In this document: positions 1-39,784 of the stretch, piece by piece
Position numbering within the stretch: the stretch's first letter is position 1
Layout of the letters: each line of letters opens with the position of its first letter
From: an uncultured bacterium
GTDB lineage: Bacteria > Bacteroidota > Bacteroidia > Bacteroidales > CAIWKO01
Direction of reading: 5' to 3'
Assembly (NCBI GenBank): GCA_903862465.1
Contig: CAIOYH010000112.1
Location: 1 to 41,258 of the forward strand
Length of the DNA stretch: 41,258 nucleotides
Translations under genes and position numbers: made by a program
The notes under the pieces: model-generated
The model's database searches: none
Seen by the model: only the letters and a program-made list of their open reading frames with translations
What the model was told of the DNA's origin: nothing

Positions 1-1
1 A

Positions 2-481
2 GCTTTAGAAGGTGATATCAATAGTACAAGTAAGGAAAATCAGAGGATTTTGAATGCTTGTTTGAAGGAGGATCAAAAGGTGTTGAATGTGATTAAGGCT
101 TATGCTAAATCTATAGGTGATAAGGAATTGGCAAAGCAAGCTACGAAGGCTGCTGTGTTGAAAAGTATGGGAATTACACCACAAAGAAAAGCTGTTGTGA
201 AGGTGATTAAGCCCGGGTCGAGTTTGTTGTTATATACAGATTTTATTGGAAAGAATTATTTGCAGTTGACGTTGTTGACTGAGAATGTGACGGTGTTGGT
301 GGGACAGACGCATTTGAAGTTGGGTGTGATTACAGATGGGACGGAATTGCCGTTTAATGAGGTATGGGTTGGACAGAAGAAGATGATGTTGGGCACGGGT
401 AGGTATATTAAGTTGACGAATACGGATAATTTTAAGAAGGCGAAGGTTAGGGTTTTTGTTCAGGAGGTGGATTTGGAGTAG
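2..481 (+). CDS. Hypothetical protein, C-terminal fragment (5' end outside window)
   Basis: Frame is open from base 2 (ALEGDINSTSKENQRILNACL...) through the TAG at 479-481. The ORF-track start at 50 is a TTG inside an open frame, so the gene probably starts upstream of the window. Confidence 0.6.
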   Translation, partial: ALEGDINSTSKENQRILNACLKEDQKVLNVIKAYAKSIGDKELAKQATKAAVLKSMGITPQRKAVVKVIKPGSSLLLYTDFIGKNYLQLTLLTENVTVLVGQTHLKLGVITDGTELPFNEVWVGQKKMMLGTGRYIKLTNTDNFKKAKVRVFVQEVDLE

Positions 482-509
482 GCTGCTTAGTTTAAGGTTT
501 AAACCCCAA

Positions 510-524
510 CCCCTTGAAAAGGGG
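510..524. repeat. Short intergenic hairpin (CCCCTTGAAAAGGGG), possible terminator or repeat
   Basis: CCCCTT (510-515) pairs with AAGGGG (519-524) just downstream of the first gene. Confidence 0.4.
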
Positions 525-600
525 CTATAATAGGTCGGGAATATTTTAATTGAGTAATTCAGTTTTCGTGTAAATTATTATAAAGATTAAAAGACAAGGC

Positions 601-1248
601 ATGAATGTACAATTATTTGATATAAAACATATTTTAATTAAGGTTTTTATTTTTATTGCAGCGATTGGATCAATTTGTGGTGTTCCTTTTATGAGTTGTA
701 AAGAATGTGTGCGACAAAGAGAAAAACAACCGGGACGCGATACCATTAGTTTTAATGTTCCAATTATTGCCATTTGTGACTCAATGAAAATCATGGATGG
801 TTTAATGGACAAGCTTAATCCTGCAAAAAAACAACCACGAATTAAAAGTTGGTTGGTCAAAGATTATGAACCTGAAATTATTGATATTAATGGCAATGAA
901 TTTCAATTAAAAAATCTAAAAGTTCAAGATTTAAATGTTTTTGGAGAATTAAATAATAAAGAAAAGATTCGCTTCTATAATTTGATTCAATTCTTTCTAA
1001 AAAACAATTTGACTTCATGCTTTCCTGAGAAGCTTGGATTGGTTTCAAAATATGAATATTTTTATCATTATAGAAATTATGAAAACATAAATGAGGAAGA
1101 ATATAATAGATTTGTTCTGTTATGTGATACAAATTTTAATTACAATAACGATAGTGTTGAACGTAATTTCAAATGTCTGGACAAAAGAGATGGTTTGGTG
1201 TTATTTAAGGAAAATTATCATCATTATCTAAGTGAACATAGTAATTAA
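601..1248 (+). CDS. Hypothetical protein with N-terminal hydrophobic segment
   Basis: 215-aa ORF with ATG; hydrophobic N-terminus (HILIKVFIFIAAIGSICGVPF). Opposite-strand ORFs are shorter with unlikely composition. Confidence 0.6.
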   Translation: MNVQLFDIKHILIKVFIFIAAIGSICGVPFMSCKECVRQREKQPGRDTISFNVPIIAICDSMKIMDGLMDKLNPAKKQPRIKSWLVKDYEPEIIDINGNEFQLKNLKVQDLNVFGELNNKEKIRFYNLIQFFLKNNLTSCFPEKLGLVSKYEYFYHYRNYENINEEEYNRFVLLCDTNFNYNNDSVERNFKCLDKRDGLVLFKENYHHYLSEHSN

Positions 1249-1313
1249 TATATTTATTACATTGATGATTGTAGCACAGCTTGGAACAGTACTACGATTT
1301 AGCAATTGTGATT

Positions 1314-1332
1314 GGGCGAATGCAATTCGCCC
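1314..1332. repeat. Intergenic palindrome GGGCGAAT-GCA-ATTCGCCC
   Basis: 8-bp perfect stem with 3-nt loop. Confidence 0.6.
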
Positions 1333-1375
1333 CTACAAAGCGTGGGAATGATGGGTGGGGTGAAAGGAAATGTTG

Positions 1376-1531
1376 ATTAAGAGACCAAGGGATAGATACG
1401 GGGCACGCGCGCAAGGGATTGGAACGGAAAGCCCACAGGGGCGTTATTCAGCCCCGAGGACTTGGAGAGGAAAGCCCGACCCCCCGATTTTCTCGGGGGG
1501 ATGCGCCATAATTAGTTGCGAGTTTAGAGTT
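1376..1531. repeat. Structured intergenic element, copy 1 (candidate ncRNA or repeat)
   Basis: Near-identical to 2713-2870: attaagagaccaagggatagatacggggcacgcgcgcaagggattg...aaagcccgaccccccgattttctcggggggatgcgccataattagttgcgagtttagagtt. Hairpins GGGGC(1438-1442)/GCCCC(1451-1455) and CCCCCCGA(1480-1487)/TCGGGGGG(1493-1500). Confidence 0.75.
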
Positions 1532-1590
1532 TGTAGTTCGGTGTTCCTAGTTCAGAGTTTGTAGTTCGGAGTTCGTAATTCGGAGTTTGG
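1521..1590. repeat. AGTTNNN heptanucleotide tandem array (about 10 heptads)
   Basis: agtttag agtttgt agttcgg tgttcct agttcag agtttgt agttcgg agttcgt aattcgg agtttgg. Confidence 0.75.
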
Positions 1591-1627
1591 GCAACAGAGT
1601 TCTGTTGAGTTATAAATTTTATTATTT

Positions 1628-2296
1628 ATGAAAAGAATATTTTTTCTTTCTATTGTATTAGCTTCTTGTATTCTTTTGTTTGGATGTAAAAAGAAAAAAG
1701 AAGAACCTGTTTATGTGACGGATCAAGATGGAAATGTTTATCCAACAGTGGTTATAGGAAATCAGGTTTGGATGACTAAAAATCTTAATACTACGAAATA
1801 TCGTAATGGAGATCTAATACCAAGAGTTATAGATGATGTGGGTTGGGATACATTGCATACCGGTGCGTATTGTAATTATGATTTATATATAGAAACATAC
1901 GGTCGTTTGTATAATTGGTATGCAGTGAATGATAGCAGGGGAATTGCTCCATTGGGTTGGCATGTAGCTTCGTGGGATGAATGGAATGTGTTGGTTAATT
2001 ATATGGGAGGAGCAGATGTAGCTGGCGTGAAGCTTAAAGAAGCCGGTAGCGAACATTGGGCAACATATAATAACAGTGCAACGAATGAAAGTGGATTTAC
2101 AGCATTACCTGGTGGCTTTAGAACTATGGGAGGTCCATTTGAGTATATAAGCGATGCTGGAATTTGGTGGTGTTCAACTGAAGAGAATGAACAAGGAGCA
2201 AAGGCTGTATCAATGTGGTATAATCAAGGTGGAGTACGTTTATATTCAGGAGGGAAAAAAGAATGGGGATATTCAGTTCGATGTGTAAAGGATTAG
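1628..2296 (+). CDS. FISUMP-domain lipoprotein
   Basis: Lipobox-like signal (SCILLFGCKKKKEE); FISUMP-type text 'VTDQDGNVYPTVVIGNQVWMTKNLNTTKYRNG...RLYNWYAV...GWHVASWDEWNVL...GFTALPGGFR...YSVRCVKD'. Confidence 0.85.
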   Translation: MKRIFFLSIVLASCILLFGCKKKKEEPVYVTDQDGNVYPTVVIGNQVWMTKNLNTTKYRNGDLIPRVIDDVGWDTLHTGAYCNYDLYIETYGRLYNWYAVNDSRGIAPLGWHVASWDEWNVLVNYMGGADVAGVKLKEAGSEHWATYNNSATNESGFTALPGGFRTMGGPFEYISDAGIWWCSTEENEQGAKAVSMWYNQGGVRLYSGGKKEWGYSVRCVKD

Positions 2297-2374
2297 GAGA
2301 GAAGGTAGATTTTTTTTGGTTCAATATATTTCGCCCCTAAAGGGGCTTTGGGGGTAGAGAGGGTTGTATTTTTA

Positions 2375-2422
2375 CCCCGACATGAATGTCGGGGCTACCG
2401 ATATTAAGCCCTTACAGGGCTT
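2375..2422. repeat. Two adjacent palindromes: CCCCGACAT-GA-ATGTCGGGG and AAGCCCT-TAC-AGGGCTT
   Basis: Perfect stems at 2375-2383/2386-2394 and 2406-2412/2416-2422. Confidence 0.6.
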
Positions 2423-2551
2423 TGAAGAAGGTTGGAAGGTTTGGGGTGACGTGTGTATGTCCATTTGTATTAAGGTTGAAAACTTGAAGAAGGTTTTTTT
2501 TTGTTTTGGGTTGGTGTTGATGAAGGATGGGAGTAGATGGCAAATTGTTAT

Positions 2552-2679
2552 GGGCTAAAGCCTTTACTGTGTAGGTAGTAGGTGACCCCGCCCTGAAGGG
2601 CAGGGTAATTCATTAGGTTGCATTACCCTGTGCTTTAGTACGGGGGAGAATACGGTAAAAATGCGTTTGGCTTTAGCCC
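2552..2679. repeat. Nested inverted repeat, MITE-like or structured element
   Basis: Outer stem GGGCTAAAGCC (2552-2562)/GGCTTTAGCCC (2669-2679); inner stem CAGGGTAAT (2601-2609)/ATTACCCTG (2632-2640). Confidence 0.6.
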
Positions 2680-2712
2680 CCAATATAAATATGGAGACAA
2701 TAGTTTTACGGT

Positions 2713-2870
2713 ATTAAGAGACCAAGGGATAGATACGGGGCACGCGCGCAAGGGATTGTAGTGGATAGCCCACAGCGCCGCTTCTTCGCGGCGCGAGGAC
2801 TAGGAACGGAAAGCCCGACCCCCCGATTTTCTCGGGGGGATGCGCCATAATTAGTTGCGAGTTTAGAGTT
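2713..2870. repeat. Structured intergenic element, copy 2 (candidate ncRNA or repeat)
   Basis: Second copy of 1376-1531; its variable hairpin is GCGCCGC (2775-2781)/GCGGCGC (2788-2794). Confidence 0.75.
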
Positions 2871-2978
2871 CAGAGTTCCTAGTTCGGAGTTCCTAGTTCA
2901 GAGTTCCTAGTTCAGAGTTTGTAGTTCGGAGTTCCTAGTTCAGAGTTTGTAGTTCGGAGTTCCTAGTTCGGAGTTATT
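2860..2978. repeat. AGTTNNN heptanucleotide tandem array (17 heptads)
   Basis: From 2867: 8 consecutive 14-mers agttcRgagttcct / agttcRgagtttgt, each made of two AGTTNNN heptads; preceded by agtttag. Confidence 0.8.
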
Positions 2979-3057
2979 GATTTGTTGATTGGTTAATTAA
3001 GGTTATTAGGAGTTGAGCAATTAACTTATTCAACAAATTAAGCATTCAACTCCCCCC

Positions 3058-4362
3058 CTATTCCAACCATTTCTTAATTCTCCCAATGACTTCTTCTTTC
3101 ATAGCGGCAGGCAAGGATGCGATGCGGCTACGGTGGCTACCTTCGGGGCAAACGGCTTTATAGAGATTGGTTTTATGGTCGAAATTGACAGCCGCAGCCG
3201 ACCAAGGGTCGTATTCGCCATAAATAAAAATCATTTGAGGATCGTTGTCGCGCAGGAATTTGGCACAGCGTTGCGAAATGGTGCTATCGAAAGTCACGCG
3301 ATAATCTTTGGGCATAAATATTTTGTCGAGATAGCCCTTGGCAGTGGTAATCTTCAGGTATTTTGCGAAGGGGCGAGTGTCGTAGCCGTAGTAGCCTAAT
3401 TCGTGGGCGGCTTGCACAAAAAATGCTTTCGTGGATTCCATCTCTTCCAAGGCAAAATAATCGGGTGAGCAAACTCGTATCAAATAGTTGAACATATCCA
3501 AATCACTCGCCTTCTTGGCAGGAATGGAAGCGGGTTTCCATCCCCATTGCCAAAAGGAAAAAGAAAATTCCAATACACAATAGTCATAGATTTCGTCTAA
3601 AGGCAGATTGAAAGTATAATGCTTATCGTCACAAAACGACTTGAACATCGGCATCAGTTTCGCTCTGCGTTTCAGTATCTGAAGCTGAAACTCTTGCACC
3701 TTGGCGCGGTCTTTGGCATTGCCAACCTGATTGGCTATAAAAGGCTCATGACGCCCGTCTTCGACGCCGAAACTCAAAGGCGCCACATAACACACAGAGA
3801 TATCCACGTCATTAGGATACAGCGTGCGATAAATCAAAGCCGTTTCGCCACCCTTGCTGATGCCGGTAGCTATCCATTTGTGCGTGTAAATCGTCTTAAA
3901 CAGCTCCGTAACGTGATGATGATCGGCAGCAGCATTCGTGGTGGTGAGATATTTCCAATTGAGTTCTTTGGGTGTGGAGGTGCCAAAATAGCGATGTTCC
4001 ACAAAAATCTGATTGGTATGAAACAAGCTTGCCACTTCTTCGATATAGCTTTCGCGCTCGGCATAATCGCCCGTATAGCCTTCCGTTACGATTACCGTAG
4101 CGGCATCATACGAAAAATGAGACACATAAACACGTTGCGCAAACCATCCCGCAGTGGTGTCATTCGCATCCAACCATTGTTTGAGCTCTACGAGATATTT
4201 CTCTTTGAAATTGGTAGTGAATTTGAGCGGTTTCACATCAATAACTCCGCGCAAGGACTTAATTTGTTTGTATAATTGTGTTTCTTGTGCCGTGGCAGAA
4301 GTCATTGCGAGGCAAACAAGCAACAACATAACAATCCGAATTTTCAGTGTTTTTCTGATCAT
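3058..4362 (-). CDS. S37-family (PS-10-like) secreted serine peptidase
   Basis: Signal peptide; nucleophile-elbow text 'WIATGISKGGETALIYRTLYPNDVDISVCYVAPLSFGVEDGRH' and 'FIYGEYDPWSAAAV...PEGSHRSRI' match the S37 alpha/beta-hydrolase pattern. Confidence 0.8.
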   Translation of the reverse strand: MIRKTLKIRIVMLLLVCLAMTSATAQETQLYKQIKSLRGVIDVKPLKFTTNFKEKYLVELKQWLDANDTTAGWFAQRVYVSHFSYDAATVIVTEGYTGDYAERESYIEEVASLFHTNQIFVEHRYFGTSTPKELNWKYLTTTNAAADHHHVTELFKTIYTHKWIATGISKGGETALIYRTLYPNDVDISVCYVAPLSFGVEDGRHEPFIANQVGNAKDRAKVQEFQLQILKRRAKLMPMFKSFCDDKHYTFNLPLDEIYDYCVLEFSFSFWQWGWKPASIPAKKASDLDMFNYLIRVCSPDYFALEEMESTKAFFVQAAHELGYYGYDTRPFAKYLKITTAKGYLDKIFMPKDYRVTFDSTISQRCAKFLRDNDPQMIFIYGEYDPWSAAAVNFDHKTNLYKAVCPEGSHRSRIASLPAAMKEEVIGRIKKWLE

Positions 4363-18614: not shown

Positions 18615-18676
18615 TTTATAACCGCTTAAAAGTAATTTATAACCGCTTATAAATAGATTATAACCGCTTATAAATT
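18615..18676. repeat. Three-unit 21-bp repeat (TTATAACCGCTTA core)
   Basis: ACCGCTTA occurs at 18621, 18642 and 18663, exactly 21 bp apart; every unit contains stop codons, so it is non-coding. Confidence 0.75.
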
Positions 18677-18833
18677 GTCTTTAGCGACCGACCCTGTTAT
18701 TTCAAAAAGTCGTATAACAACTAGTAAAAACCAATGATAGTACTGATAGTTGCAAACTACCATTCACAAAGTTCGAAGTTGCAGACTTTAAACAATATGA
18801 ACCATAACAGATACGGAATCTGCATTATACAAA

Positions 18834-19337
18834 TTAAATTGGAGAGTAAATGGGAGCCAATGATGGGTGAATGAGAGGCAATGTTCCATGAATTTTATTA
18901 GATGGAGAGCAAATGGGAGGCAATGTTCCGTAAATGGGAGGCAATGTTCCGTGAATGAGAGCCAATGTTCCGTGAATGAGAGCCAATTTTCCGTGAATGA
19001 GAGCCAATGTTCCGTGAATGGGAGGCAATGTTCCGTGAATGAGAGCCAATGTTCCGTGAATGGGAGGCAATGTTCCGTGAATGAGAGCCAATGTTCCGTG
19101 AATGGGAGCCAATGTTTCGCGAATGAGAGCCAATGTTGCGTGAATGAGAGCCAATGTTCCGTGAATGAGAGCCAATGTTCCGTGAATGAGAGCCAATGTT
19201 CCGTGAATGAGAGCCAATGATTTTAAGCTGTTCTGAGTGTTTTTAAAGGCACTTATTGACTCAGTTTTATTGGTACACAGATGTGCACTGAGGAGAAGAG
19301 ACACATAGCAAACCAAAAATATTAATAGGATTCGCAT
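18834..19337 (-). CDS. Possible repeat protein: signal-peptide-like N-terminus plus (LALIHGT)n heptapeptide repeats
   Basis: 167-aa ATG ORF; MRILLIFLVCYVSLLLSAHLC looks like an export signal. The repeat tract may instead be non-coding. Confidence 0.35.
   Translation of the reverse strand: MRILLIFLVCYVSLLLSAHLCTNKTESISAFKNTQNSLKSLALIHGTLALIHGTLALIHGTLALIHATLALIRETLAPIHGTLALIHGTLPPIHGTLALIHGTLPPIHGTLALIHGKLALIHGTLALIHGTLPPIYGTLPPICSPSNKIHGTLPLIHPSLAPIYSPI
18912..19217. repeat. 21-bp minisatellite, about 14.5 units (aatgagagccaatgttccgtg / aatgggaggcaatgttccgtg)
   Basis: Directly readable tandem units; + frame translates as NESQCSV/NGRQCSV, - frame as LALIHGT/LPPIHGT. Confidence 0.95.
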
Positions 19338-30604: not shown

Positions 30605-32674
30605 TTATTCCGCCACAAAATTAAAATTCCTTGGATACTTCACCGAGTATTTGAAACTCATCACTTTTCTTTCATTACTGTTCAACATAATGTCCCAAGT
30701 GAGTTTCCCGCTTTTTTCATCTAGCTTGGCTAAATTATAATCCAAAGGCTGCACCTCAATTGATTTCTTTTCGGAAACAGGAAATTGATCTTCGATAATG
30801 ATATGGATAGTGCTTGCTTTATTGTTTCTCACCGTAATGTCCCAACCGATGGTTTCTTTAATATTATTACCTATCAAAATTTTATCTTTCATTATTTTAT
30901 TTCCTTCACGAGTGATGATGATATTGCGGTCTCTGCCTAAGGAAACATTCAGTGTATCGCTTGCCAAATCGGTGTTTAAAAACGATTCCCCGGTGAAAGT
31001 TCCCTGATAATAAAGACTTGCATTGCCCGACAACAAGTTCAAACTCGTCCAATCCACAATCTGTGCCGACAAAAACACATTATTATCCATCTTAGGAACA
31101 GCATGGTAAATATAATTCACAGGAACACTCACCTCTTTAATTTTTATGGAATAATCCCTGCCATCCGAAGGAATGGTGTAAGGAATATCAATGGAATACT
31201 CCAAATTGGTGACATTGGTTTTTAGAGAATTGGAGATAAAATTGGCTGTCTCAACCCCTTTTACCTTCGCAGCGTCAATATACATAACTTGACCGTCCTC
31301 TCTCGAGCCTCTGTATTCCCCAAAACTTGCAGCACTACCTCCATTTATCACATCAACATCTTCTATTTTGGCAATTCCACTAACCGAATTCAAATTTCTA
31401 TTTCTATTAACTCCAGCTATTTTACTAATTTCGTTGCTACTAAATGTCGATCCGGAAACTACTTTGTCAGCAGAAATAAGCGGAACTTTATATTCTGAAA
31501 TCTCAACCGACTCGAGATTTATGGTACTTGCCCTCATAGGGATATCCTGAAAAGTAATCATATCAGGCTGAATGCGCACTGAATTCACAGTAACCGCTGT
31601 ATAGCCTATATACGACACCTTAATATCATAATAGCCCGATGCTATAGGTTTAATGGTGTAATTGCCATCAAAATCAGAAGTAACACCAGTCAACATCGTA
31701 GTACCTGAATAAATCAGCACATTGGCAAAAGGGATAGGTTCGTTCGTTTCTTTATCTAAGATTCTGCCCTTCAAAGTGCCAGCGCCTTTGGCAACAGCAA
31801 CCGATTGATAGGTGCGGACATTGCCCAATTTCCATGCCGACAAATCAGGTTTGTTGCCACTGAGCGTTGGGTTGGAAGTAGAAAGTTTCAGCTTTGCCTG
31901 ATTCCAATCTTCGCCTGAGGATTGATAGATATTGGCATTATACACTATGCTTAAGGGCTGCGTGATATCGTCCACCCTGAAATCATACAAGGGAGTCCAA
32001 CCCGCGCTATTGATAAAATAACTCAGCACAAAAGATCCATTCACCTCCTTATCGCAATCAATAGCCATAATAATCCTGCTGTGAGTTTTGTTTTTCTTTG
32101 AGGCAAACTCATTCATCTGCATATACAATTCCTGTATCTTTTTGTTGGCAGTCTCCAAATCCTTCGACAAGTTCAATTCGCCCTGCTTGATATCATTCAG
32201 GCGAAGACGATAATAGTCCGCAGCCTCTTTTATCTCCGATATGGATGAACCTGTATCGCCCTTTTTTAGGTACTGATTGTTGAGCAGCAAGCTTTCTTCC
32301 TGACCAAAAACCACCATCTTGTTTTTGATGGTCTTTATAATAAACTCCTGTTCGTCAATTTTCGTCTGAATGTCAACCTCCACCTTATCTTTGCGACTTA
32401 GATTTGGAATGATATTTTCGTGCTTCACCGACAAAATAACCGAACTCGGGATTTTGTTCACCTGAATACTCACAGGATTTATCTCCCCGGGCAAATTATC
32501 TACCACCAAGAAATGTTTTCCTTTCAAACACTTCAAATCAACCTGACGCGAAATTTGCGCACCACTGAAAAACACGGTAACATCCGTAATTTTAGAATTT
32601 ACCCATAAGGTGTCTATCCCACAAAAAGCTTTCTGCGAAAGCAATACCAACAGTATCACGATTATTTTCTTCAT
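30605..32674 (-). CDS. MuiA/DUF4139-family protein with CarboxypepD_reg-like and TonB-plug-like insertion
   Basis: SKITDVTVFFSGAQISRQVDL...ITDVTVF N-domain; GWTPLYDFRVDDITQPLSIVYNANIYQSSGEDWNQAKLKLSTSNP; insertion 'GTLKGRILDKETNEPIPFANVLIYSG...'. Start at 32674 preferred over 32740 (signal peptide MKKIIVILLVLLSQKAFC). Confidence 0.85.
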   Translation of the reverse strand: MKKIIVILLVLLSQKAFCGIDTLWVNSKITDVTVFFSGAQISRQVDLKCLKGKHFLVVDNLPGEINPVSIQVNKIPSSVILSVKHENIIPNLSRKDKVEVDIQTKIDEQEFIIKTIKNKMVVFGQEESLLLNNQYLKKGDTGSSISEIKEAADYYRLRLNDIKQGELNLSKDLETANKKIQELYMQMNEFASKKNKTHSRIIMAIDCDKEVNGSFVLSYFINSAGWTPLYDFRVDDITQPLSIVYNANIYQSSGEDWNQAKLKLSTSNPTLSGNKPDLSAWKLGNVRTYQSVAVAKGAGTLKGRILDKETNEPIPFANVLIYSGTTMLTGVTSDFDGNYTIKPIASGYYDIKVSYIGYTAVTVNSVRIQPDMITFQDIPMRASTINLESVEISEYKVPLISADKVVSGSTFSSNEISKIAGVNRNRNLNSVSGIAKIEDVDVINGGSAASFGEYRGSREDGQVMYIDAAKVKGVETANFISNSLKTNVTNLEYSIDIPYTIPSDGRDYSIKIKEVSVPVNYIYHAVPKMDNNVFLSAQIVDWTSLNLLSGNASLYYQGTFTGESFLNTDLASDTLNVSLGRDRNIIITREGNKIMKDKILIGNNIKETIGWDITVRNNKASTIHIIIEDQFPVSEKKSIEVQPLDYNLAKLDEKSGKLTWDIMLNSNERKVMSFKYSVKYPRNFNFVAE

Positions 32675-37837: not shown

Positions 37838-39784
37838 TCAGGGTGTGCAAACACAACAACCTCCATTAGCCATACCATTACTACAACTACCAGTATTTGA
37901 TGTTACATTACAATATCCACCAACAACAGATACTGCATGACTGCAACCACAATTAGAGGTATATACACCTATGCAGACTGCAAAAGTACTTACTGCTGGC
38001 CCAGTAGGTCCCTGAGGTCCTGTTGCACCAGTTGATCCTGTAGCTCCAGTTGCTCCAGTAAGACCTTGCGGACCTTGAACACCTTGAATACCTTGTGGTC
38101 CTGTAGCACCAGTTGCACCTGTGGCACCTTGAGGCCCAACCAAACTTACACCACTTCCCCAAGCGCCTGCAGTTTTAGGTCCATAAATCAAATGAGTTGA
38201 AGTATTGATATAAAAATCTCCATTAGAACCAGTCCCTGCTACAGGCACAACCACTCCATTTAAAACTGTACTACCATTGGTTCCAGCCGCTCCGGTAGCA
38301 CCAGTTGCGCCTGTAGAACCTTGAGGTCCAACCAAACTAACTCCGCTTCCCCAAACTCCTGCTGTTTTAGGTCCATAAATTAGATTAGTTATTGTATTGA
38401 TGTAAAAATCACCATTCACACCTACTCCAACTGATGGTGCACCAGTTCCATTAAGAACAGAATACCCATTTGCTCCATTATTTCCGGCAGGTCCTGTCGA
38501 ACCAGTTGCCCCTGTCAAACCAATGGGTCCTTGAGCACCGGTTGAACCAGTAGCCCCCGTTGCACCCATGGGTCCAATCAAACTTACGCCACTGCCCCAT
38601 GAACCTGCTGTTTTTGGTCCATATAACATATTCGAAAAGGTGTTTATATAAAAATCACCATTAACTCCTATCCCAACAGTTGGCACAGTGGTTCCATTTA
38701 ATACTGAATACCCATTTGTTCCATTATTTCCGGCAGCCCCTGTCGAACCAGTTGCTCCTATCAAGCCAATGGGTCCTTGAGCACCGGTTGAACCAGTAGC
38801 TCCCGTTGCACCAGTGGGTCCAATCAAACTTACGCCACTTCCCCATCCTCCTGCTGTTTTTGGTCCATATAACATATTCGAAATGGAATTAATATAAAAA
38901 TCACCATTAACTCCTATACCTACAGTTGGCACAGTGGTTCCATTTAAAACTGAATACCCATTTATTCCATTATTGCCTGAGGGTCCTGTCGAACCTGTTG
39001 GTCCGGACAAGCCAATAGGTCCTTGTAGACCTGTTAATCCAATTGGTCCTTGGGGTCCAATAGCTCCGTCGTTACCTGTCAGTCCGATTGGACCTTGAGG
39101 TCCAATTATTCCATCATTACCTTGCTGTCCCTGAGGTCCTACAATGCCATCGTTACCTGTTAATCCTATTGAACCTTGAGGTCCCACAGCACCGTCGTTT
39201 CCTGTCAATCCAATTGGACCTTGAGGACCCATTGCCCCATCATTACCTTGCGGTCCCTGAGGTCCTACAGCACCATCGTTACCTGTTAACCCAATTGGAC
39301 CTTGAGGACCCATTGCACCATCATTGCCTTGCGCTCCTTGAGGTCCCGTTAAGCCTATTGGTCCTTGCGGTCCGGGAGTACTGGATTGATTTGAATACAA
39401 TGCATAAGGAACGCTGATAAGTTGTGGTGAGCCTACAGCAATAAAGCCCATGCCCAGATTCATTTGAACATTGAGATATTTTGCTCCTGCTCCCCAATTA
39501 ATATTATTAAAAACACCAACAGGTGAAGTTCCATCACCTATTTCAAAGTTTACAAGACCAAATTGATTAGTAGTGGTTACATGAGTTTCGTGATATACAT
39601 CAGTTCCCGAAACCGAACCGTCAAGTATGGTGATTAAAAATGTTATGGTTTGAGAAGCAATAATGCTACCGTTATTATCTCTGCAGACTGCCTGATAATT
39701 AAACTTCTGCGGTGCCTGTGCCCATAAGGGCATTGCAAAAACTCCTAATAGAAGAAATAGAATAAATGTGTATTTATTTTTCAT
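37838..39784 (-). CDS. Collagen-like triple-helix repeat surface protein with Cys-rich C-terminus
   Basis: Signal peptide; QAPQKFNYQAVCRDNNGSII module; long GPQGPIGLTG/GATGATG tracts; four 'VLNG..VP..G.G.NGDFYIN....LIYGPKTAG.WGSGVSL.GP' modules; Cys-rich tail. Confidence 0.92.
   Translation of the reverse strand: MKNKYTFILFLLLGVFAMPLWAQAPQKFNYQAVCRDNNGSIIASQTITFLITILDGSVSGTDVYHETHVTTTNQFGLVNFEIGDGTSPVGVFNNINWGAGAKYLNVQMNLGMGFIAVGSPQLISVPYALYSNQSSTPGPQGPIGLTGPQGAQGNDGAMGPQGPIGLTGNDGAVGPQGPQGNDGAMGPQGPIGLTGNDGAVGPQGSIGLTGNDGIVGPQGQQGNDGIIGPQGPIGLTGNDGAIGPQGPIGLTGLQGPIGLSGPTGSTGPSGNNGINGYSVLNGTTVPTVGIGVNGDFYINSISNMLYGPKTAGGWGSGVSLIGPTGATGATGSTGAQGPIGLIGATGSTGAAGNNGTNGYSVLNGTTVPTVGIGVNGDFYINTFSNMLYGPKTAGSWGSGVSLIGPMGATGATGSTGAQGPIGLTGATGSTGPAGNNGANGYSVLNGTGAPSVGVGVNGDFYINTITNLIYGPKTAGVWGSGVSLVGPQGSTGATGATGAAGTNGSTVLNGVVVPVAGTGSNGDFYINTSTHLIYGPKTAGAWGSGVSLVGPQGATGATGATGPQGIQGVQGPQGLTGATGATGSTGATGPQGPTGPAVSTFAVCIGVYTSNCGCSHAVSVVGGYCNVTSNTGSCSNGMANGGCCVCTP

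Follow-up and report, generated by a model that had tools for sequence, protein, structure and literature searches.

The closest described relative of the element analysed here is the Flavo-1 RNA (RF01705), which was reported by Weinberg et al. 2010 (PMC2864571) and is filed in Rfam under the class Gene; sRNA. Flavo-1 is a widespread structured 'RNA' without a function so far, and in F. psychrophilum it has been reported in both sense and antisense, often outside transcripts (PMC9723704). Two other systems are relevant for comparison. GTAG repeats constitute the REP/RAYT system (PMC3733652), and Frpo/ssi sites are ssDNA promoters on conjugative plasmids that serve anti-defence genes of the leading region, with the same geometry as described below (PMC11541004).

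The window, a 41,258-nt contig from an uncultured member of the Bacteroidales, belongs to a 4.2-Mb genome in 230 contigs (G000) and carries two copies of the element with the following features.

1314–1336, − strand: GTAG-tagged REP-like palindrome GTAGGGGCGAATTGCATTCGCCC upstream of copy 1, read from the sequence by resemblance
1376–1406, + strand: 5´ module of copy 1 (ATTAAGAGACC...GGCAC), from the alignment of 40 copies; other sequence in some copies
1407–1507, + strand: structured core of copy 1, matched by covariance model R1 (120.5 bits) and by Flavo-1 (1406–1485, 26.9 bits)
1409–1413, + strand: 5´ side of the closing stem P1, GCGCA, pairing with TGCGC at 1502–1506; double changes at 2 of 5 pairs, e.g. 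AU to CG to GC
1415–1420, + strand: 5´ side of P2, GGGATT, pairing with AAGCCC at 1472–1477; double changes GC to AU and UA to GC
1421–1428, + strand: 5´ side of the symmetric internal loop, GGAACGGA (GNA-NN-GNA), facing GGAGAGGA at 1464–1471
1429–1434, + strand: 5´ side of P3, AAGCCC, pairing with GGACTT at 1458–1463; co-varying alleles
1438–1455, + strand: tip hairpin P4, GGGGC/GCCCC; double changes at 3 of 5 pairs, GCGCC/GGCGC in other copies
1480–1500, + strand: hairpin P5, CCCCCCGA/TCGGGGGG, from alignment, covariation and DNA fold; length and sequence vary in the family
2713–2743, + strand: 5´ module of copy 2, with the same sequence as in copy 1
2744–2846, + strand: structured core of copy 2, matched by R1 (117.1 bits) and by DNA fold; P4 is GCGCCGC/GCGGCGC and P3 is TAGCCC/GGACTA

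The first-pass annotation had described a duplicated intergenic element with an exchanged but paired hairpin. The duplication is real, with 91% identity between 1376–1531 and 2713–2870 across the full 156 nt, and both versions of the stem are located as described (GGGGC/GCCCC at 1438–1442/1451–1455; GCGCCGC/GCGGCGC at 2775–2781/2788–2794). The second stem is also present (P5, 1480–1487/1493–1500). It had been called invariant, which holds between the two window copies but not across the family, where P5 is among the most variable parts and has at least 13 alleles ranging from CCCGTAGGG to CCCCGACAATTTCTTGTCGGGG. The phrase 'gga...aaagccc', previously taken as a sign of internal modularity, represents opposite sides of one long hairpin rather than successive modules; the partner of GGGATT is the second AAGCCC, and that of GGACTT is the first. 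A 64-aa ORF over the element (1370–1564) is almost certainly no gene, and similar ORFs lie over other copies. Elsewhere, the window contains tandem repeats at 18807–19268 and 38082–39361, comprising 16 copies of a 21-nt unit and, further along, longer repeats.

The core, which spans ~101 nt in the 40 aligned copies, comprises the P1 closing stem, P2, a GNA-NN-GNA/GNA-NN-GNA loop, P3, the P4 tip and the P5 hairpin. P2, P3 and P4 make up a single long, imperfect hairpin, which is interrupted by two symmetric GNA/GNA loops and whose tip is swappable. The G and A positions of the internal loop are near-invariant, and its central 2 bp covary, with 94.5% paired across taxa. Double compensatory changes were observed at 12 of 27 pairs in the G000 alignment, in which 96.4% of the helix cells are paired; this level was reached by 0 of 500 shuffles, and a control in which the partner was slid by one column dropped pairing below 50%. 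Across 74 phylum-wide copies, double changes affect 23 of 27 pairs and the paired share of the cells is 96.5%, with far lower values in slid controls. P3 occurs as AAG/CTT, TAG/CTA and AAT/ATT, and P4 as GCGCC/GGCGC, GGGGC/GCCCC and GGAGC/GCTCC; the variable stem is paired in 99.5% of cells in other copies. RNAalifold recovers the same helices except for short inner ones, and DNA folding of the window copies yields the same structure. The strong covariation, both within the genome and across taxa, bears out the earlier proposal of selection on structure: compensatory change maintains the fold of the element. Two of the refuting cases named in the first-pass annotation, an unpaired variable stem in other copies and a lack of covariation, did not arise. 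Covariation by itself is no proof of RNA. When alleles of P3, P4, P5 and the loops were recoded, 109 of 201 pairs failed the four-gamete test; this independent assortment makes recombination or conversion among the copies probable.

Closeness to a known Bacteroidota family, which the first-pass annotation had raised, is supported, although Rfam membership in the strict sense is not. No match was obtained at the gathering threshold. By E-value, RF01705 matched the window copies, the rest of the genome and other taxa at 23.9–37.1 bits, below the cut-off of 42, with alignments that were nearly always full length (1–76/76) in nearly every copy tested and a genome-wide E of 4.6e-6. The full-length helix and loop architecture of RF01705 and its occurrence in Bacteroidota are thus shared while the scores stay below the cut-off, so the element family is placed within the Bacteroidota Flavo-1 superfamily as a divergent branch and not as RF01705 as defined. 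Both have a nested helix, a 3-nt loop, a 2-bp helix, a second 3-nt loop, a further helix and a swappable tip, which is exchanged wholesale in canonical Flavo-1 as well. In contrast to Flavo-1, which has the AU-rich AUCCUUUU/AAAAGAU, the element has GC-rich P2, P3 and P4, and it bears an extra P1 closing stem and the P5 hairpin. Canonical Flavo-1 in other genomes scores 60–85 bits, with copy numbers up to at least 51.

The element is a dispersed, high-copy interspersed repeat of ~78–105 nt that is patchy among close relatives. The genome-wide BLAST search suggested with the first-pass annotation returned 40 copies in G000, and model R1, which was built from this set, returned 60. Among same-genus genomes, R1 found 46 copies in G003, 24 in G001 and 0 in G002; other genomes of the order contain 1–6 copies or none. 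The 5´ module of ~31 nt is present in most of the 40 aligned copies and is replaced by unrelated sequence in six. Among the contigs listed, matches to the core pattern were observed in Algibacter, Flavobacterium, Chryseobacterium, Pedobacter, Mucilaginibacter, Chitinophagaceae, Cytophagaceae and Bacteroidales and in a few viral contigs. All named contigs listed, and virtually all plasmids with the element, are from Bacteroidota. A different interspersed repeat of ~125 nt (L011, 4238–4400) occurs in ~20 or more copies in G003.

The pair types indicate which strand folds and in which form. The ~4,900 helix cells include 76 G.T versus 28 A.C (p=3e-6), which identifies the folded strand as the + strand as drawn, and sheared G.A pairs in the GNA/GNA loops are possible on the + strand only. 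G.U (G.T) accounts for 1.6% of standard pairs, versus 8.4% in 22 distinct tRNAs of the same DNA, a rough control. The pattern used to gather the phylum copies fixes some 5´ arms and may depress G.U, but the unfixed P1 and P5 are equally low. If the element were a non-coding RNA, as Rfam files Flavo-1, the + strand would be transcribed and its RNA fold selected. The covariation and the RF01705 architecture are in keeping with this reading, and the excess of G.T over A.C would put any RNA on the + strand. However, almost no sigmaABfr promoter, and almost no T-run on either strand, was found among 99 genus copies; neighbouring genes run in both directions relative to the element; in phages it is antisense to every local gene; and copy number ranges from 60 to 0 within one genus. 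With G.U five times rarer than in tRNAs, the 'candidate ncRNA' label of the first-pass annotation is left unsupported, and an RNA identity is considered unlikely. The rarity of G.U, the lack of promoter and T-run, the mixed orientation and the frequent position of Flavo-1 outside transcripts in F. psychrophilum favour folded ssDNA. The analysis thus supports the + strand, folded as single-stranded DNA, as the object under selection.

At least 83 PLSDB plasmids carry the element, all from Bacteroidales and about half typed as conjugative. In pBF9343 and ~30 relatives, the element has a resolvase gene on one side and an ArdC-like gene on the other; one copy in p5482 of B. thetaiotaomicron VPI-5482 precedes ArdC, and a second has no such neighbour. 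The two p5482 copies are located at 18645–18727 and 31048–31130. The 5´-side neighbour is ArdC or its metallopeptidase-domain homologue in pBACSA01 and CP126057, ArdC at L369, RadC at L380, and a RadC/JAB gene in pMMCAT and three further plasmids. An ArdC-like or RadC/JAB gene occupies the 5´ side in all annotated contexts examined, apart from an IS-disrupted one and the second p5482 copy (pBF9343, p5482, pBACSA01, CP126057, NZ_CP041231, pMMCAT relatives, L369 and L380). Its start is 200–860 nt from the 5´ side of the element, and it is transcribed away, so that the + strand of the element is its template. ArdC of pBF9343-type plasmids has its own ordinary promoter ~240 nt beyond the element, which indicates that the element is more than a 5´ leader of ArdC. 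Judging by gene order, pBF9343-type plasmids and p5482 would transfer the + strand, whereas pMMCAT would not. No empty sites were found on plasmids. At L369, L379, L385 and L389, on plasmids that otherwise differ, the stretch from the element to the ArdC/JAB gene contains another conserved structured motif, AAATCTCCANCC-hairpin-GGTAGTATTT.

A recognition element or signal in folded ssDNA is the reading favoured here, although only tentatively. Building on the observed dispersal, conserved fold, strand preference and plasmid neighbourhood, we infer that the + strand would fold as ssDNA in vivo and be recognised by a protein, most likely as an initiation site such as an Frpo/ssi-like promoter, a priming site or a single-strand origin. 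The site would be used at a single-stranded DNA stage, e.g. conjugative entry, when a polymerase or primase would start RNA or a primer at the hairpin and read the + strand towards the 5´ side of the element, where ArdC or RadC/JAB lies on plasmids. Copies on chromosomes, those of the window among them, would be non-autonomous versions of this structure that have been dispersed. Similar to Frpo/ssi, the element would be a folded ssDNA structure upstream of anti-restriction or establishment genes that are transcribed away. Unlike Frpo/ssi, it shows no sequence similarity or promoter boxes and is dispersed in high copy in chromosomes as well; neither sigmaABfr boxes nor −10/−35 elements were recognised in its stems, and the promoter role is putative.

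Several observations count against the ssDNA signal. The genus of the window has no ArdC gene at all, and no family is enriched among the genes upstream of chromosomal copies. In pMMCAT the orientation is wrong on the assumption that the adjacent mobC/relaxase indicates the active oriT, and the plasmid contexts reduce to ~3 independent lineages. The position in phages is not predicted by this model: in five viral contigs (L364, L366, L370, L371 and L372), the element is antisense and 1–8 nt behind a terminase-like gene, whose protein falls into two to three diverged lineages. The terminase label derives from a Walker A motif and position, with no match in Pfam or PHROGs.

The ssDNA-type folding constraint and the intergenic, patchy, high-copy distribution are also expected of a REP-like selfish palindrome that a Y1/RAYT (HuH) transposase mobilises in ssDNA form. 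The element resembles REP/RAYT in being an interspersed, intergenic imperfect palindrome of patchy copy number in a genome with HuH transposase genes. Two of the four Y1_Tnp genes in G000 share the strand of a copy and lie 300–500 bp to its 5´ side, and GTAG-tagged hairpins precede many copies. The linkage was promising in G000 but failed in relatives: the two linked RAYTs are near-identical paralogues and thus perhaps reflect one event, no such neighbourhood was found in G001, G003, G005 and G032, G018 and G034 have a copy without Y1_Tnp, and G002 has six Y1_Tnp genes without a copy. The core is several times longer than a REP with its 20–40 bp palindrome and lacks the GTAG tag, the GTAG hairpins being separate neighbours, no flanking RAYT gene is conserved in relatives, and Flavo-1 shows no replication-strand bias in the complete genome G095. 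Mobilisation of this kind is likewise judged unlikely. Beside the GTAG-tagged palindrome listed above, the window has a second at 2374–2397; the stems of both are variable. AAGGTT-rich repeats are inverted around two near-identical Y1_Tnp genes (L035 1100–2030; L040, complement, 1600–2460), possibly as their own terminal repeats, and also occur at 2420–2500 of the window.

The flanks of chromosomal copies raise the possibility of an attC-like recombination or integration site, with DNA gained and lost on the 5´ side and a stable 3´ side. In copies shared between G000 and G003, the 3´ flanks are 95.5% identical, whereas the 5´ flanks are replaced in 5 of 8 pairs or only ~85% identical, and the copies mark synteny breaks. 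At one G000 copy, an extra 1.4-kb gene lies exactly at the 5´ edge; this insertion, which adjoins the element and does not consist of it, was the one found in a search for empty sites between G000 and G003. The cassette of ~1.4 kb with one ORF (L009 1000–2490 versus L111 2449–2706) is absent from G003, and its ORF belongs to a family of seven members, including window 2–481. On the 3´ side of the window copies is a peptidase S37 gene (3058–4362), whose G003 counterpart has a different neighbour and no element; the block 1–2870 therefore looks newly placed. The ssDNA-type hairpin, symmetric internal loops and variable tip recall integron attC, but R/L boxes (RYYYAAC/GTTRRRY), cassette arrays and a linked integrase are all absent; the ends are GCGCA/TGCGC or GCGTTA/TAACGC, and the copies are scattered. 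Draft assemblies may break or mis-join at repeats, homologous recombination among 60 copies would give the same picture, and the element is fixed in position on ~30 plasmids. An attC-like role is considered quite improbable. A transcription terminator or mRNA 3´-end element behind genes, which would explain why copies lie nearer gene ends than starts (~44 to 17 within 100 nt) and directly after the stop codon of the terminase-like gene in phages and the resolvase gene in plasmids, is very unlikely, given that the T-run expected behind the hairpin of an intrinsic terminator is absent on either strand, that chromosomal copies yielded neither promoter nor terminator signals, that both orientations occur and that the strand preferred by the G.T/A.C asymmetry is antisense to the terminase-like and resolvase genes.

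The surroundings of chromosomal copies also show strand asymmetry. The + strand of the element is the G-rich strand at 39/40, 33/40 and 17/20 loci. The skew appears at third codon positions in genes of both directions, is local and fades over 3–6 kb 3´ of the element. The C152 copy has a skew of +0.3 to +0.4, versus ~0 in the element-less G002 orthologue, a net change towards G. Cytosine deamination was ruled out as the sole cause, since the changes are mainly N>G. Extreme GC-skew islands of several kb, with third-position skew up to 0.9, are located at 1–4000 of the window and on contigs C152, C209, C27 and C29 of G000; many start at a copy, and some are without a detected copy (C29 near 44 kb, C209 40–42 kb). 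Canonical Flavo-1 in G095 shows neither replichore orientation bias nor local skew, so the islands are no general property of Flavo-1. If the element causes these chromosomal strand islands, local mutation bias would have a source that has so far gone unrecognised.

In its broadest form, the proposal would extend to the whole Flavo-1 superfamily, on file as sRNA since 2010: its members would be Bacteroidota ssDNA promoters or initiation sites on conjugative plasmids, phages and chromosomes, and chromosomal copies would repeatedly expose the adjacent strand and thereby give rise to the 3´ G-rich islands in this genus. We regard this extension as rather unlikely. For the element itself, the test of strand and pair types points to DNA, and the well-known Bacteroides plasmids pBF9343 and p5482 give it a fixed place beside anti-restriction genes. 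This result recasts Flavo-1 as a testable problem of how Bacteroidota deal with single-stranded DNA that enters the cell.
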